DNA of 64,000 nucleotides from Gemmatimonadaceae bacterium (GTDB lineage Bacteria > Gemmatimonadota > Gemmatimonadetes > Gemmatimonadales > Gemmatimonadaceae), in contig JADZDM010000023.1 of assembly GCA_020851035.1 (NCBI GenBank), positions 124,001 through 188,000 of the forward strand, read 5' to 3'. Below the pieces are notes generated by a model that saw only the letters and a list, made by a program, of their open reading frames with translations, was not told the DNA's origin and ran no database searches. The first letter of the stretch is position 1. The number at the start of each line of letters is the position of its first letter. The position numbers and the translations under genes were made by a program. This document shows positions 22,372 through 59,518 of the stretch, one piece after another.

Positions 22372-22593
22372 ATCGTCAACAAGGTTCACGCGGAAAACGC
22401 GGAAAACGCGGAAAGGTGCCTCTACCGCGCTGCCACCCTGGAGACGGCTCGACCCGAAGAAGATGCTGTAGGAACTGCGCGTTCGCGCACGCAGTTCCTA
22501 CAGCATTCCTTCAAGGTGCATTCGGCCGGACGTGGCCTTGGGGTAGGGCCTTTCCGCGTTTTCCGCGTCTTCCGCGTGAACCCTGTTGACGAT
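22372..22593. repeat. Long nested inverted-repeat element, A-type copy
   Basis: The 45-nt outer arms at 22372-22416 and 22549-22593 are inverted copies matching at 43 of 45 positions. Each arm contains tandem CGCGGAAAA-like units next to GTTCACG. A perfect 17-bp hairpin (22463-22479 with 22490-22506) occupies the centre and contains GGAACTGC/GCAGTTCC. No reading frame explains it. It fills the gap between the EamA and SURF1 genes. Confidence 0.9.
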
Positions 22594-54971: not shown

Positions 54972-55301
54972 GCGGGATGGGTGATTGGCTGACTGACGAG
55001 ATTGGTGTGGCTTCATGCTGACGCCATGCTGTGCTCGATGCAAGCACACTCGACCGTCGGGTTGCAGAGTTCGGTTGTCGCGAGAGCTGCTCCCGGAAAC
55101 TGTTGCAGTCACTCGCAGTTCCGTTCCGCGTTTTCGGCGTGAACCCTGTGACCATGCCCGAGCGACACGGGGGCTGGCCACCTGCGACACGGAGGCAGCG
55201 GGTGCGCGACGACAGCGTCGCGACAGGGGCGCGGTCACTGTCGTCTTGCTTGACCTTCGGCGTTTATTCGGTATCGTCAACAGTCCCACGACGAGCCGAC
55301 G
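54972..55301. other. Intergenic region carrying a degenerate half of the A-type repeat
   Basis: No gene is visible. At 55115-55156 the sequence runs GCAGTTCC, TTCCGCGTTTTC, GGCGTGAACCCTGTGACC: the right half of the A-type element with changes. GGAAACTG just upstream is a relic of the central hairpin. The left half is missing. The promoter of the ImuA-like gene should lie in the remaining part. Confidence 0.6.
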
Positions 55302-56306: not shown

Positions 56307-56324
56307 ACATCAAGATCAACTGAT

Positions 56325-56527
56325 TGACGCAAAGGCGCGAAAGGCGCAAAGAACGCAAAGGGGTCGACGCATCAGGCATGCCTCGCTCGCACGAGAAGCA
56401 TCGCATTTGAGGGGAACTGCAGTGCAGTTGCAGTTCCCACAGCCGTCTCGATGCCACGTGCTACGCCGACGATGGCCGAGGGCACGGATCTCTTTGCGTC
56501 CTTCGCGCCCGTTGCGCCTTTGCGTCA
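56325..56527. repeat. Long nested inverted-repeat element, B-type copy 1
   Basis: The 36-nt arms at 56325-56360 and 56492-56527 are inverted copies matching at 31 of 36 positions, built from GACGCAAAGGCGC-like units. The centre holds a perfect 10-bp hairpin, GGGAACTGCA (56412-56421) with TGCAGTTCCC (56429-56438). The same GGAACTGC core is found in the A-type element. Confidence 0.9.
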
Positions 56528-56569
56528 TGCGGTTGCTGTTCGTGACTCGAAGATGCGCGTGACGGACGT

Positions 56570-56575
56570 GATATT
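56570..56575 (+). promoter_or_regulatory. -10 element GATATT for the methyltransferase-like gene
   Basis: GATATT ends 7 nt before the ATG at 56583, which supports that start over in-frame codons at 56451 and 56553. Confidence 0.5.
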
Positions 56576-56582
56576 GAGCCCC

Positions 56583-57044
56583 ATGCTGACGCAACTCGAG
56601 CTCCGCATCCCGCCGCCAATCCTGGCCGGCGTCACGGCACTGGTGATGTGGATGGGCGCGCACGACAACGCGCCGTTCGCGCGGCCGCCGTGGCTGGGGG
56701 CGCTGGTGGCGGGGATCGCGGTCGCGGCGGGGCTGGTGTTCGCGGTGGCGGTCGCGACGATGGTGCGGGCGCGGACCACCGTGACGCCAATCCGGCCCGA
56801 GCGGGCCAGCACGCTCGTCACGACGGGGATCTTCAGCGTGACGCGGAACCCGATCTACGTGGGTGATGCGCTGGCATTGCTGGCGTACGCCTGTCACCTG
56901 TGGCAGCCGCAGTCGTTCGTGGCGGTGCCGGTGTTCGTGGCGTGGATTCACCGCTTCCAGGTGCTGCCCGAGGAGCGGGCGCTGCGAGCGAAGTTCGGGG
57001 CGGCGTACGAGGCGTACCTGTCCCGGACGCGGCGCTGGATCTAG
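56583..57044 (+). CDS. Isoprenylcysteine carboxyl methyltransferase-family membrane protein
   Basis: This 153-aa protein has about four membrane helices and the ICMT/PEMT-like C-terminal signature: VTTGIFSVTRNPIYVGDAL (~residues 79-97) followed by EERALRAKFGAAYEAYLSRT RRWI-type ending with the conserved E-E-x-x-L and Y residues. Bacterial members methylate unknown substrates using S-adenosylmethionine. It is 88 bp upstream of the BlaI gene, but a separate promoter lies between. Confidence 0.82.
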   Translation: MLTQLELRIPPPILAGVTALVMWMGAHDNAPFARPPWLGALVAGIAVAAGLVFAVAVATMVRARTTVTPIRPERASTLVTTGIFSVTRNPIYVGDALALLAYACHLWQPQSFVAVPVFVAWIHRFQVLPEERALRAKFGAAYEAYLSRTRRWI

Positions 57045-57073
57045 CGCGACCCAGGCATCTACGGGAAAAGCAG

Positions 57074-57102
57074 TTGACAAACCACGCGACGGGCGCGATA
57101 GT
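57074..57102 (+). promoter_or_regulatory. Consensus-like promoter for the blaI-M56 operon
   Basis: TTGACA at 57074-57079 is followed after 17 nt by GATAGT at 57097-57102, the best sigma-70-type promoter I see in the window. It lies ~30 bp before the BlaI start codon, with no clear BlaI/MecI dyad. Confidence 0.65.
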
Positions 57103-57132
57103 ACGGAAGAACCCGTAGCCAAGGTGCCCCGC

Positions 57133-57510
57133 ATGCCTGACCCGCTCTACTTCCCGCCCCGCGAACTGGCCGTCATGTCCGTCCTCTGGCGCACCGGCGG
57201 TGCCACCGTGGCCGAGGTGAAGGACGCCCTCGAGGAGCCGTTGGCGTACACCACTGTGCTCTCCGCCCTCCAGACGCTCGAAGAGAAGGGCTACGTCGGG
57301 CACGAGGCCGAGGGGCGCGCCTACCGCTACAAGGCGCTCGTCGCCGCCGCGGCGGCCGGCGACAGCGCCCTCGCCCGCGTCCGCGAGTCGATCTTCCAGG
57401 GCTCGGCCGAAAAGCTGTTCGCGCACTTCGTGAGCGACGAGAAGCTCAGCCGCAGTGAGCTGGAGCGGATGCGCCGCCTGCTGGCCGACCGGCTCGGGGA
57501 GGAGGCATGA
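57133..57510 (+). CDS. BlaI/MecI/CopY-family transcriptional repressor
   Basis: This 125-aa protein has the family's winged helix: PPRELAVMSVLWRTGGATVAE at the N terminus, then YTTVLSALQTLEEKGYVGHE (~residues 39-58) as recognition helix and wing, and a C-terminal dimerisation helix pair. BlaI-type repressors are inactivated by proteolysis when the partner M56 sensor is triggered. The M56 gene starts in its stop codon (ATGA), the standard arrangement. Confidence 0.92.
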   Translation: MPDPLYFPPRELAVMSVLWRTGGATVAEVKDALEEPLAYTTVLSALQTLEEKGYVGHEAEGRAYRYKALVAAAAAGDSALARVRESIFQGSAEKLFAHFVSDEKLSRSELERMRRLLADRLGEEA

Positions 57511-59048
57511 TCGCCTGGTCGATGGCGCAACTGCTGCTGCTCGGCGCGTTGCTGGCGCTGGCGGCGTACGGGGCCGAGTCGGCGCTCACCGTGGCCGGTC
57601 GGCAGACGCGATGGGTGTGGCTGTCGGCGTTGTTGATGACGGTGGTGCTGGGTGCGCTGGCGCCGATGCGCCTGATGCAGGGCGGGCGCGCAATCGAGCT
57701 GACACTCTCGGCCGCGCCGGCCACGGCGATCGCTGCGCCGGCGGCGCCAGCGGGCGCACTGGAGCTGTTGCAACGCACGTGGAGCGCAGCGCGCTCGCGT
57801 GGCGAGGCCCTCGTGCAGCAGGCGTGGAGCGCATGGCACGACGTGATGCCGGCGCAGGTCGAGACCGCGCTGCTGCTGGCCTGGCTGGTGGCCAGCCTCG
57901 CACTGCTGCTGCTGTTCGTGGGCGTGCATGTGCGCTACCACCGCCGTCGCGCGCAGTGGCCGCAGCGCCTGGTGCGTGGCACCACGGTGCGGGTGGCCGA
58001 CGACACCGGCCCCGCCGTGATCGGCGTGACGCGCACCGAGATCGTGGTGCCGTCCTGGCTGCTTGCTCGCGAAAGCCGGGAGCAGGAACTGGTGCTCGCA
58101 CATGAACTCGAGCATGTGCGGCTGCACGACCCGCTGCTCCTCGCGGTGGCCCAGGCAGCGGTGGTGCTGCTGCCCTGGCACCCGGCGGTGTGGTGGATGG
58201 CCAGCCGGATGCGGCTGGCGGTGGAGCTCGACTGTGACCGGCGCGTGCTGCAGCGCGGAGCCAGTGCACGGGATTACGGCACGCTGCTGATCGACCTCAC
58301 GGATCATCGCGCCGGTTTCGGCGCGGCGCTCCCCGCCTTTTCCTGCTCGCCTTCCCATCTGGAACGGAGACTGGTTGCCATGACCCCGAAGCGCCTGAAG
58401 TACCCGCTCGTTCGCGCCCTCACCGCCGGCGCCTTCGCGTCGCTCGCGCTGCTGGCCGCGTGCGAGGCCAAGCTGCCGACGTCGGAGGAAGTGAACGCGA
58501 TGACGGCCAGGTCAGCCACCGAGGCGGCCGCGTTCGCGACGATGGTGGACACGGCGGCGGTCCGGTACTTCATCGACGACGTCCCAGCGACGAAGGCCCA
58601 GGCCGAGAAGCTCAGTGCGGAGCAGATCGCGACGGTGAATGTGCTGCAGAAAGGCACGCAGAGTGGCGGCGAGGTGCGCATCATGACCCGCACGCCGACC
58701 CCGGCCGACTCGACCGACCCGACGCGTATCATGCTGCGCCGCGCCGACCCGACGCAGGTGACGTTCCACACGCCTGGCGACACGGTCACGGCCTCTGCGG
58801 GCAGCACCACCATCGCGCGCACGCAACTCGACGCGAAGCGCGCCGATGAGAGCAAGCCCCGCACGCCATTCACCGGCCTGCTGGTCGTCGACGGCGTGGC
58901 GCGTGAATCGAACGCCATGAACACGATCTCGCCCGACCAGATCATCTCCGTGAACGTCATGAAGGGCGCGGCTGCGACGGCCAAGTACTCCGACCCGCGC
59001 GCGGCCAACGGTGTGATCGAGATCGTCACCAAGAAGGCGACGCCCTGA
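57507..59048 (+). CDS. BlaR1/MecR1-like M56 membrane metallopeptidase with plug-like C-terminus
   Basis: This 513-aa protein has four N-terminal membrane helices, the zinc motif HELEH at ~residues 199-203 with downstream ligand in ELDCDRRVL, and a fifth helix region around 310 (RALTAGAFASLALLAACEA). In place of the penicillin-binding sensor of BlaR1, the extracytoplasmic part ends in a receptor-plug-like segment (SPDQIISVNVMKGAAAT then ANGVIEIVTKK), as in TonB-dependent receptor plugs; an earlier similar unit (SAEQIATVNVLQKG) suggests a duplication. It probably senses an envelope signal and cleaves the BlaI repressor. Confidence 0.88.
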   Translation: MIAWSMAQLLLLGALLALAAYGAESALTVAGRQTRWVWLSALLMTVVLGALAPMRLMQGGRAIELTLSAAPATAIAAPAAPAGALELLQRTWSAARSRGEALVQQAWSAWHDVMPAQVETALLLAWLVASLALLLLFVGVHVRYHRRRAQWPQRLVRGTTVRVADDTGPAVIGVTRTEIVVPSWLLARESREQELVLAHELEHVRLHDPLLLAVAQAAVVLLPWHPAVWWMASRMRLAVELDCDRRVLQRGASARDYGTLLIDLTDHRAGFGAALPAFSCSPSHLERRLVAMTPKRLKYPLVRALTAGAFASLALLAACEAKLPTSEEVNAMTARSATEAAAFATMVDTAAVRYFIDDVPATKAQAEKLSAEQIATVNVLQKGTQSGGEVRIMTRTPTPADSTDPTRIMLRRADPTQVTFHTPGDTVTASAGSTTIARTQLDAKRADESKPRTPFTGLLVVDGVARESNAMNTISPDQIISVNVMKGAAATAKYSDPRAANGVIEIVTKKATP

Positions 59049-59070
59049 GGCCTGCGTCGCACGACTGCAC

Positions 59071-59270
59071 GGCATGACGCAAAGGCGCAAAGGGCGCGGA
59101 GGGCGCAAAGAGTTCGGGCCCGAATCGTGACTCCGTGAATTGAGGGGAACTGCCTTGGCTGTTGCAGTTCCCCTCAATTGCGTTGACGCTCGTGCGGGCC
59201 GGGCAGTGCCCCTCGCGCAGGACCGCCGTTCTTTGCGTCCTCCGCGCCCTTTGCGCCTTTGCGTCATGCC
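59071..59270. repeat. Long nested inverted-repeat element, B-type copy 2
   Basis: The 40-nt arms at 59071-59110 and 59231-59270 are inverted copies matching at 39 of 40 positions. The centre is a perfect 16-bp hairpin (59138-59153 with 59164-59179) containing GGGGAACTGC. This is the most perfect copy in the window and sits 23 bp after the M56 stop. Confidence 0.93.
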
Positions 59271-59303
59271 GTAGCTTTTCCCGACCCCAAACGGAAGAAG
59301 CGA

Positions 59304-59414
59304 ATGACGAGAGCCGCAGTGATGCCAGCGCCACACGCACCGATCGAGGTGCGCGAGTATCCGGCGCCGGTGCTCGGCCGGAACGAAGCCGTGCTGCGCA
59401 CGCTGTTGTGGGAG
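59304..59414 (+). pseudogene. Zinc-dependent alcohol dehydrogenase remnant (N-terminal 37 codons)
   Basis: The reading MTRAAVMPAPHAPIEVREYP continuing APVLGRNEAVLRTLLWE is the start of a medium-chain zinc-type dehydrogenase. The expected Cys-Gly-Thr-Asp catalytic segment should follow, but the frame runs straight into a half copy of the A-type repeat and stops at 59504. The rest of the gene is gone. Confidence 0.65.
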
Positions 59415-59518
59415 CGCAGTTCCTTAAGCATTTCTTCACTGCGGGCTTCGCAGGAGATAGTGCCGCTGTTGCACTTTTCCGCGTTCTCCGCGCTTTCCGC
59501 GTGAACCTTGTTGACGAT
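59413..59518. repeat. Right half of an A-type inverted-repeat element
   Basis: GCGCAGTTCCTTAAGCATT at 59413 matches the right side of the A-type central hairpin, and 59474-59518 matches the A-type right arm at 40 of 45 positions. The left half is absent, and the junction falls exactly where the alcohol dehydrogenase homology ends. Confidence 0.8.

Follow-up and report, generated by a model that had tools for sequence, protein, structure and literature searches.

Two described systems are among the closest to the repeats considered here. In REPINs (repetitive extragenic palindromic doublets forming hairpins), the partners of RAYTs (repeat-associated tyrosine transposases), inverted repeats pair around a hairpin (Bertels and Rainey, 2011; PMC3116915), while the intervening sequences (IVSs) of 23S rRNA are inverted-repeat elements with an S23 open reading frame (ORF), cut by RNase III and of uncertain origin (PMC4990558). 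The DNA analysed here, which we call the window, is a 64-kb stretch (C23:124001-188000, contig JADZDM010000023.1) of the 5.0-Mb, 34-contig draft genome of a member of the Gemmatimonadaceae. It holds two intergenic palindromic elements, W1 and W2. In our view they are gene-less relatives, comparable to REPINs or to miniature inverted-repeat transposable elements (MITEs), of an element that bears a gene of the GxxExxY family, and the putative GxxExxY nuclease would be what mobilises them; we give this reading a probability of about 0.5.

The anatomy of the elements is simple. Inverted repeats lie at 56325-56527 (W1) and 59071-59270 (W2), as claimed in an earlier note on this DNA, and the stem of their central hairpin, GGAACTGC/GCAGTTCC, is that of the core of an A-type element of the same window (W3, Table 1). 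In W1, positions 56312-56365 pair with 56487-56540 over 54 nt, 78% of them complementary. When folded as single-stranded DNA and compared with shuffled sequences, W2 falls 14.7 standard deviations (SD) below them and W1 6.1 SD below (z -14.7 and -6.1). A pattern of two CRCRRAR units matches nothing in the 64 kb but these elements and one half element.

The lead that such repeats accompany GxxExxY genes was tested here. This genome has four genes of the family (PF13366/TIGR04256) and only these: three are inside arms and one is adjacent to arms (Table 1). The GxxExxY proteins retain the nuclease motifs E, D, ExK and QxxxY, and a structural model (predicted local distance difference test score, pLDDT, 94.7) finds its nearest folds in Cas4 SSO0001, AdnAB, AddAB, LHK-Exo, RecE and lambda exonuclease, through weak matches (best E 0.038, none reaching E 0.001). 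A sequence search of solved structures returned a single irrelevant match (E 0.41). From the conserved D, ExK and QxxxY and the modelled core fold, GxxExxY is predicted to be a PD-(D/E)XK nuclease of the Cas4/RecB-like kind.

The association extends far beyond this genome. Scanning contigs yielded 80 PF13366 loci, which belong to the LGPGLLES subgroup of GxxExxY and span 21 phyla, archaea included; 75 were testable. With matched inverted flanks defined by an alignment score of at least 30 between the upstream flank and the reverse-complemented downstream one, 57 of the 75 loci have them, against 0 of 60 outward-shifted control windows, while cross pairs between loci, which share the same consensus, match in 12.8% of cases. 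Arrays of CRCRRAG are present on both sides of 45/75 loci and on at least one side of 66/75, versus 2/57 controls. Among 101 Gemmatimonadales genomes the gene was found in 18 of the 21 that bear arms and in 19 of the 80 that do not (Fisher p = 3e-7, uncorrected for kinship), and in five cases (L126, L129, L137, L138, L142) a Gemmatimonadales gene stands between two complete palindromes. In several genomes gene-less palindromes far outnumber the genes, as in G014 (76 arm matches, one gene) and G024 (119, one gene), and 19 of 30 sampled CRCRRAG arm loci proved to be paired. The gene tree mixes phyla (42 changes, versus a floor of 20 and 56.7 with shuffled labels), to be read with an alignment of 115 columns only. 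A search for phage carriers gave no match.

A second, unrelated protein offers a telling comparison. In 40 of the same genomes, S23 genes (PF05635) were found to have matched inverted arms at 22 of 30 loci (score of at least 30), against 0 of 23 controls, with arm units that differ from those of GxxExxY: CRCRRAG occurs at 0/30 S23 loci and, on at least one side, at 66/75 GxxExxY loci, so that which unit the arms have depends on the gene between them. Most simply, each protein, or machinery dedicated to it, would recognise arms of its own. Outside rRNA, these genes for four-helix-bundle proteins (L231-L260) lie between matched inverted arrays of 6-8-nt units that vary by locus, and one genome (G167) has 35 PF05635 matches. 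As a partner in the window's own genome S23 was rejected, PF05635 not being found there (the search controls were silent, and the same model matched 34/40 other genomes). The parallel suggests another way of spreading, in which the elements would act as RNA, like the IVSs of 23S rRNA, with an arm stem cut by RNase III and an RNA intermediate. IVSs are indeed flanked by inverted repeats, carry an S23 ORF and are cut by RNase III (PMC4990558), and S23 genes elsewhere have matched inverted arms; yet a search for known structured RNA in Rfam gave no match up to E 1, and the GxxExxY fold is, by its model, of the DNA-exonuclease type, which makes this route very improbable.

Within the genome of the window, pattern searches and the stretches retrieved with them reveal a whole population. 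The core pattern has 49 exact occurrences, versus none for the reversed pattern, and the arms fall into three families, A (CAACARGGTTCACGCGGAAAACGCGGAAA, with CGCGGAA units), B (GACGCAAAGGCGCAAAGGGCGC, CGCAAAG) and C (GGTTCCCACGGAGCCACGGAG, CACGGAG), all of which fit inverted CRCRRAG/CRCRRAR arrays with a period of 8-9. The earlier note had seen two arm families around one core and had asked whether arms always pair with like arms. The families are distinct as it said, with C as a third one, and the pairing is strictly like with like: at up to three errors, the 79 pairs divide into 51 BB, 17 AA, 11 CC and no mixed pair. Mixed pairs that appear at four errors were dismissed as chance C-type matches in GC-rich DNA. 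As for the common core, its 8-bp stem is shared by the families, but its length class differs with the arms: 27-28 nt for A (12/12), 25-26 nt for B (23/27) and 44-46 nt for C (10/10), the arm type thus predicting the class in 45 of 49 elements. Because the four B-armed exceptions bear an A-type core (three) or a C-type core (one), some modular exchange must be admitted, as had been suggested, although it is rare (4/49). The picture is one of three coherent subfamilies, between which arms and cores are occasionally exchanged. A shared enzyme recognising the core hairpin, also proposed in that note, finds no support here. Cores are common in this genus only, where the genomes have 49, 8 and 16, against 0-4 in the other members of the family that were searched, whereas arms span 21 phyla. 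That about 80 palindromes of this genome share their kind of arm with the flanks of GxxExxY genes points to a widespread, apparently undescribed form of miniature mobile DNA.

The note had further asked whether an associated TnpA-REP-like transposase (Y1, HUH) exists in the genome. On this idea the elements would be REPINs that a RAYT-like Y1 transposase of the genome mobilises; in its favour, three such genes (PF01797) are present and paired inverted repeats surround a hairpin, as in REPINs. However, within 1.5 kb on either side of the three genes there is no arm pattern and no full core, a single GGAACTGC at one edge apart, the repeats beside a RAYT-like gene are of another kind, and the arms track GxxExxY; we therefore find the idea hardly credible. 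Those other repeats are tandem copies of GAAAGGGGACAGAGTCCGGGCACA (L006, 2290-2440), a separate family next to one RAYT-like gene, and a related-looking GGGGACAGAG-type repeat (L005, about 2015-2110) seems to lie near another Y1 gene, as read from ORF translations.

Do the palindromes move as units? Arms within an element are more alike than same-type arms of different elements (z 7.3 for B, 4.1 for A, 4.4 for C), and odd variants are found in both arms of one element, such as CTGAGG in L017 and AACAGCG in L035, which makes concerted copying or correction plausible. The note had seen imperfections almost fully corrected in W2; the comparison does not show W2 to be W1 in a corrected form, whereas the likeness of arms within an element holds for the set as a whole. 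Three pairs of near-identical elements (L058/L063, L031/L032 and L017/L053; 92-94% identity) sit at unrelated sites: their interiors are nearly identical, their arms more diverged and their flanks unrelated, and the shared stretch stops close to a GAACNGC motif that lies outside the B arms. Therefore, either whole elements reached new places or interiors were exchanged between arms. Long (AACAGC)n hexamer arrays border B elements in this genome (L032, 2250-2330; L092, 560-610), and the GCAACT-like unit of these border arrays recurs inside B-type cores. Elsewhere in the genome (C14; L037, 600-800), direct repeats of about 80 bp stand in tandem, and every one of them contains the right half of an A-type arm.

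The congeners, about 70-75% identical to this genome, allow a look at orthologous sites. At both the W1 and the W2 position, G002 has palindromes whose core is similar but whose arms are others; in G001 an A-like palindrome occupies the W2 position, while at the W1 position there is none and the next gene is missing too. Different elements thus occupy the same intergenic sites across species, as would be expected if insertion had occurred repeatedly at sites that are permissive or already palindromic from older elements. Because the congeners are too diverged, the ends of the elements and any target duplications are undefinable. Nested palindromes are seen in G002 (L101, 700-1040 and 3110-3360), where, at both sites orthologous to W1 and W2, the core is surrounded first by CACGCGGGG arms and then, further out, by CACAGAGCCAC arms. 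Empty sites were also sought through plasmids with annotated GxxExxY insertions, in Bacteroides and Sphingomonas, and no close insertion-free relative was found. In these plasmid/chromid records, GxxExxY with matched arms lies between radA and a FAD-protein gene in Bacteroides finegoldii (L261, 2424-2900) and between fabD and fabG in Sphingomonas parapaucimobilis (L262, 2441-2960).

It could also be held that the palindromes are static, acting as terminators or as hairpins that stabilise mRNA, growing by slippage and staying perfect through template-switch (quasi-palindrome) correction, without ever moving as units. The position of elements 3' of stop codons, W2 for example, would agree with this, as would the co-variation of arms within an element, the different palindromes at the same site in congeners, and the tandem units and terminal (AACAGC)n arrays, which suggest slippage. 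Yet static hairpins sit badly with three near-identical pairs, interiors included, at unrelated sites, with the W1 site of G001 that has no palindrome, and with a link to one nuclease family over 21 phyla, which is unexpected for terminators. On balance this account is improbable.

Mobilisation by GxxExxY might proceed as follows. The fuller members consist of a single GxxExxY gene between inverted arrays of short CRCRRAG-type units, and the arms are probably recognition or processing sites of the nuclease. Gene-less palindromes, folded as single strands or as cruciforms, would undergo processing in trans and would then be copied to new intergenic sites; the two arms would stay alike either because they are copied as one folded unit or through templated correction. 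Broader still is the proposal that the stand-alone RecB-like GxxExxY protein recognises its own flanking arrays and mobilises large populations of gene-less palindromes in trans in bacteria and archaea, with S23 and the IVSs as a second class that runs parallel but has another protein and another arm code; this we advance tentatively, at somewhat less than even odds.

Several observations weigh against giving GxxExxY this role. Its part in mobilisation is inferred. Nine of the 75 loci are without an arm array on either side, and a strict CRCRRAG test on Gemmatimonadales GxxExxY loci is positive on both sides for 10/32 only, arms being more varied in this order than in the wider set. The congeners gave neither a clean empty site nor a target-site duplication; at 70-75% identity, their sites hold other palindromes or are rearranged. 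The remaining objections lend themselves to another explanation, in which GxxExxY is a passenger and a separate trans-acting machine (reverse transcriptase, other transposase, replication or repair) moves inverted-array elements, with the arms as its substrate. Since the unrelated S23 protein has a similar inverted-arm architecture, both may share a machine that belongs to the host or acts in trans; the other three nucleases of the genome are just 39-56% identical to the first, so that the gene has not been amplifying recently; and one genome, G120, has many arms and no detected GxxExxY gene. Against the passenger role stand the arm unit, which tracks the gene at GxxExxY and S23 loci, and the co-occurrence of arms and gene across Gemmatimonadales genomes. 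We consider that role unlikely, without dismissing it.

Table 1. Palindromic elements of the window and GxxExxY genes of the same genome (positions are those of the window unless a contig is given).
Feature	Position	Strand	Description
W1, B-type palindromic element	56318..56535	.	intergenic: ImuA-like gene / isoprenylcysteine-methyltransferase-like gene
W1 left arm	56325..56366	+	GACGCAAAGGCGCGAAAGGCGCAAAGAACGCAAAG, CRCRRAG-type units
W1 core hairpin	56413..56437	.	GGAACTGC-AGTGCAGTT-GCAGTTCC, 25 nt
W1 right arm, inverted	56491..56527	-	
W2, B-type palindromic element	59069..59272	.	just 3' of BlaR1-like gene (ends 59048)
W2 left arm	59069..59111	+	43 nt, 98% complementary to W2 right arm
W2 core hairpin	59146..59171	.	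GGAACTGC-CTTGGCTGTT-GCAGTTCC, 26 nt, within TTGAGG/CCTCAA outer stem
W2 right arm, inverted	59230..59272	-	
W3, A-type element	22377..22588	.	arms CAACAAGGTTCACGCGGAAAACGCGGAAA..; core 22471-22498 (28 nt) in TGCTGTA/TACAGCA stem
A-type element, right half only	59406..59515	.	core half GCAGTTCC 59416-59423, arm 59477-59512
A-type element, degenerate right half	55115..55150	.	GCAGTTCC and one arm
GxxExxY gene L080	C21:439290		enclosed by A arms
GxxExxY gene L077	C2:79051		enclosed by B-like arms
GxxExxY gene L079	C21:446826		enclosed by A-variant arms
GxxExxY gene L078	C34:36750		directly beside C-armed palindrome

Between W1 and W2 (57126-59048) lie a BlaI-like repressor gene and a BlaR1-like sensor/peptidase gene. 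Past W2, in the stretch 59304-59515, an alcohol-dehydrogenase-like frame breaks off after some 100 nt, where the half A-type element, which has no left arm, begins; the break is a few bases from the core half, and in the congener G002 the gene is intact across the compared stretch. This single case is compatible with breakage near the tip of a hairpin.

In the open-access literature, as far as our search reached into it (subscription papers and preprints lay outside), GxxExxY or PF13366 is mentioned without function, repeats or mobility, and searching with the repeat sequences led to unrelated primers and papers only. GxxExxY is present in many phyla. Its association with arms offers an explanation for a common unexplained type of repeat (ACGCAAAGGCGCAAAG, CACAGAGACACAGAG and similar ones), and, as the matched arms have gene-dependent units, its role is testable. 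If the nuclease does mobilise the palindromes, the system would rest on a nuclease fold that is not known to act as a transposase.

How, then, do these elements compare with known systems? The nearest folds to the GxxExxY model, those of Cas4, AddAB and lambda exonuclease, share with it the conserved D, ExK and QxxxY. In contrast to these, GxxExxY is a stand-alone protein of about 120 amino acids flanked by arms, with no Cas1, helicase or CRISPR (clustered regularly interspaced short palindromic repeats) partner in the loci inspected. Some Cas4-like genes are included in casposons (PMC4046053). REPINs and RAYTs (Bertels and Rainey, 2011; PMC3116915) are alike in that numerous short inverted repeats, paired around a hairpin, lie between genes and have lineage-specific sequences, and in that the partner gene, present in few copies, has the same repeats in its flanks. 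Here, however, the partner is a predicted PD-(D/E)XK nuclease and not a Y1/HUH transposase, the arms are tandem arrays of 8-9-nt units, the elements measure about 200 bp, and no REP-type motif or tag turned up, no search having been aimed at them. As no Y1 gene was found beside the arms, the system works like REPIN/RAYT but is not a member of it. MITEs resemble our elements in being short, gene-less, dispersed between genes and bounded by inverted terminal arms, with larger versions that carry a gene and near-identical copies at unrelated sites; unlike them, the palindromes have no known transposase, no target-site duplication was found, and the arms are internally repetitive. Their terminal repeats match those of an element that bears a nuclease, with a putative role in transposition. 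Finally, the IVSs of 23S rRNA differ in protein fold and in arm units, and the GxxExxY elements examined lie between protein-coding genes, not in rRNA. Both are nevertheless small single ORFs bordered by stem-forming inverted repeats, with a mobility that is suspected and a mechanism that is unknown, and the S23 parallel would connect the palindromes described here to the unsettled origin of rRNA intervening sequences.

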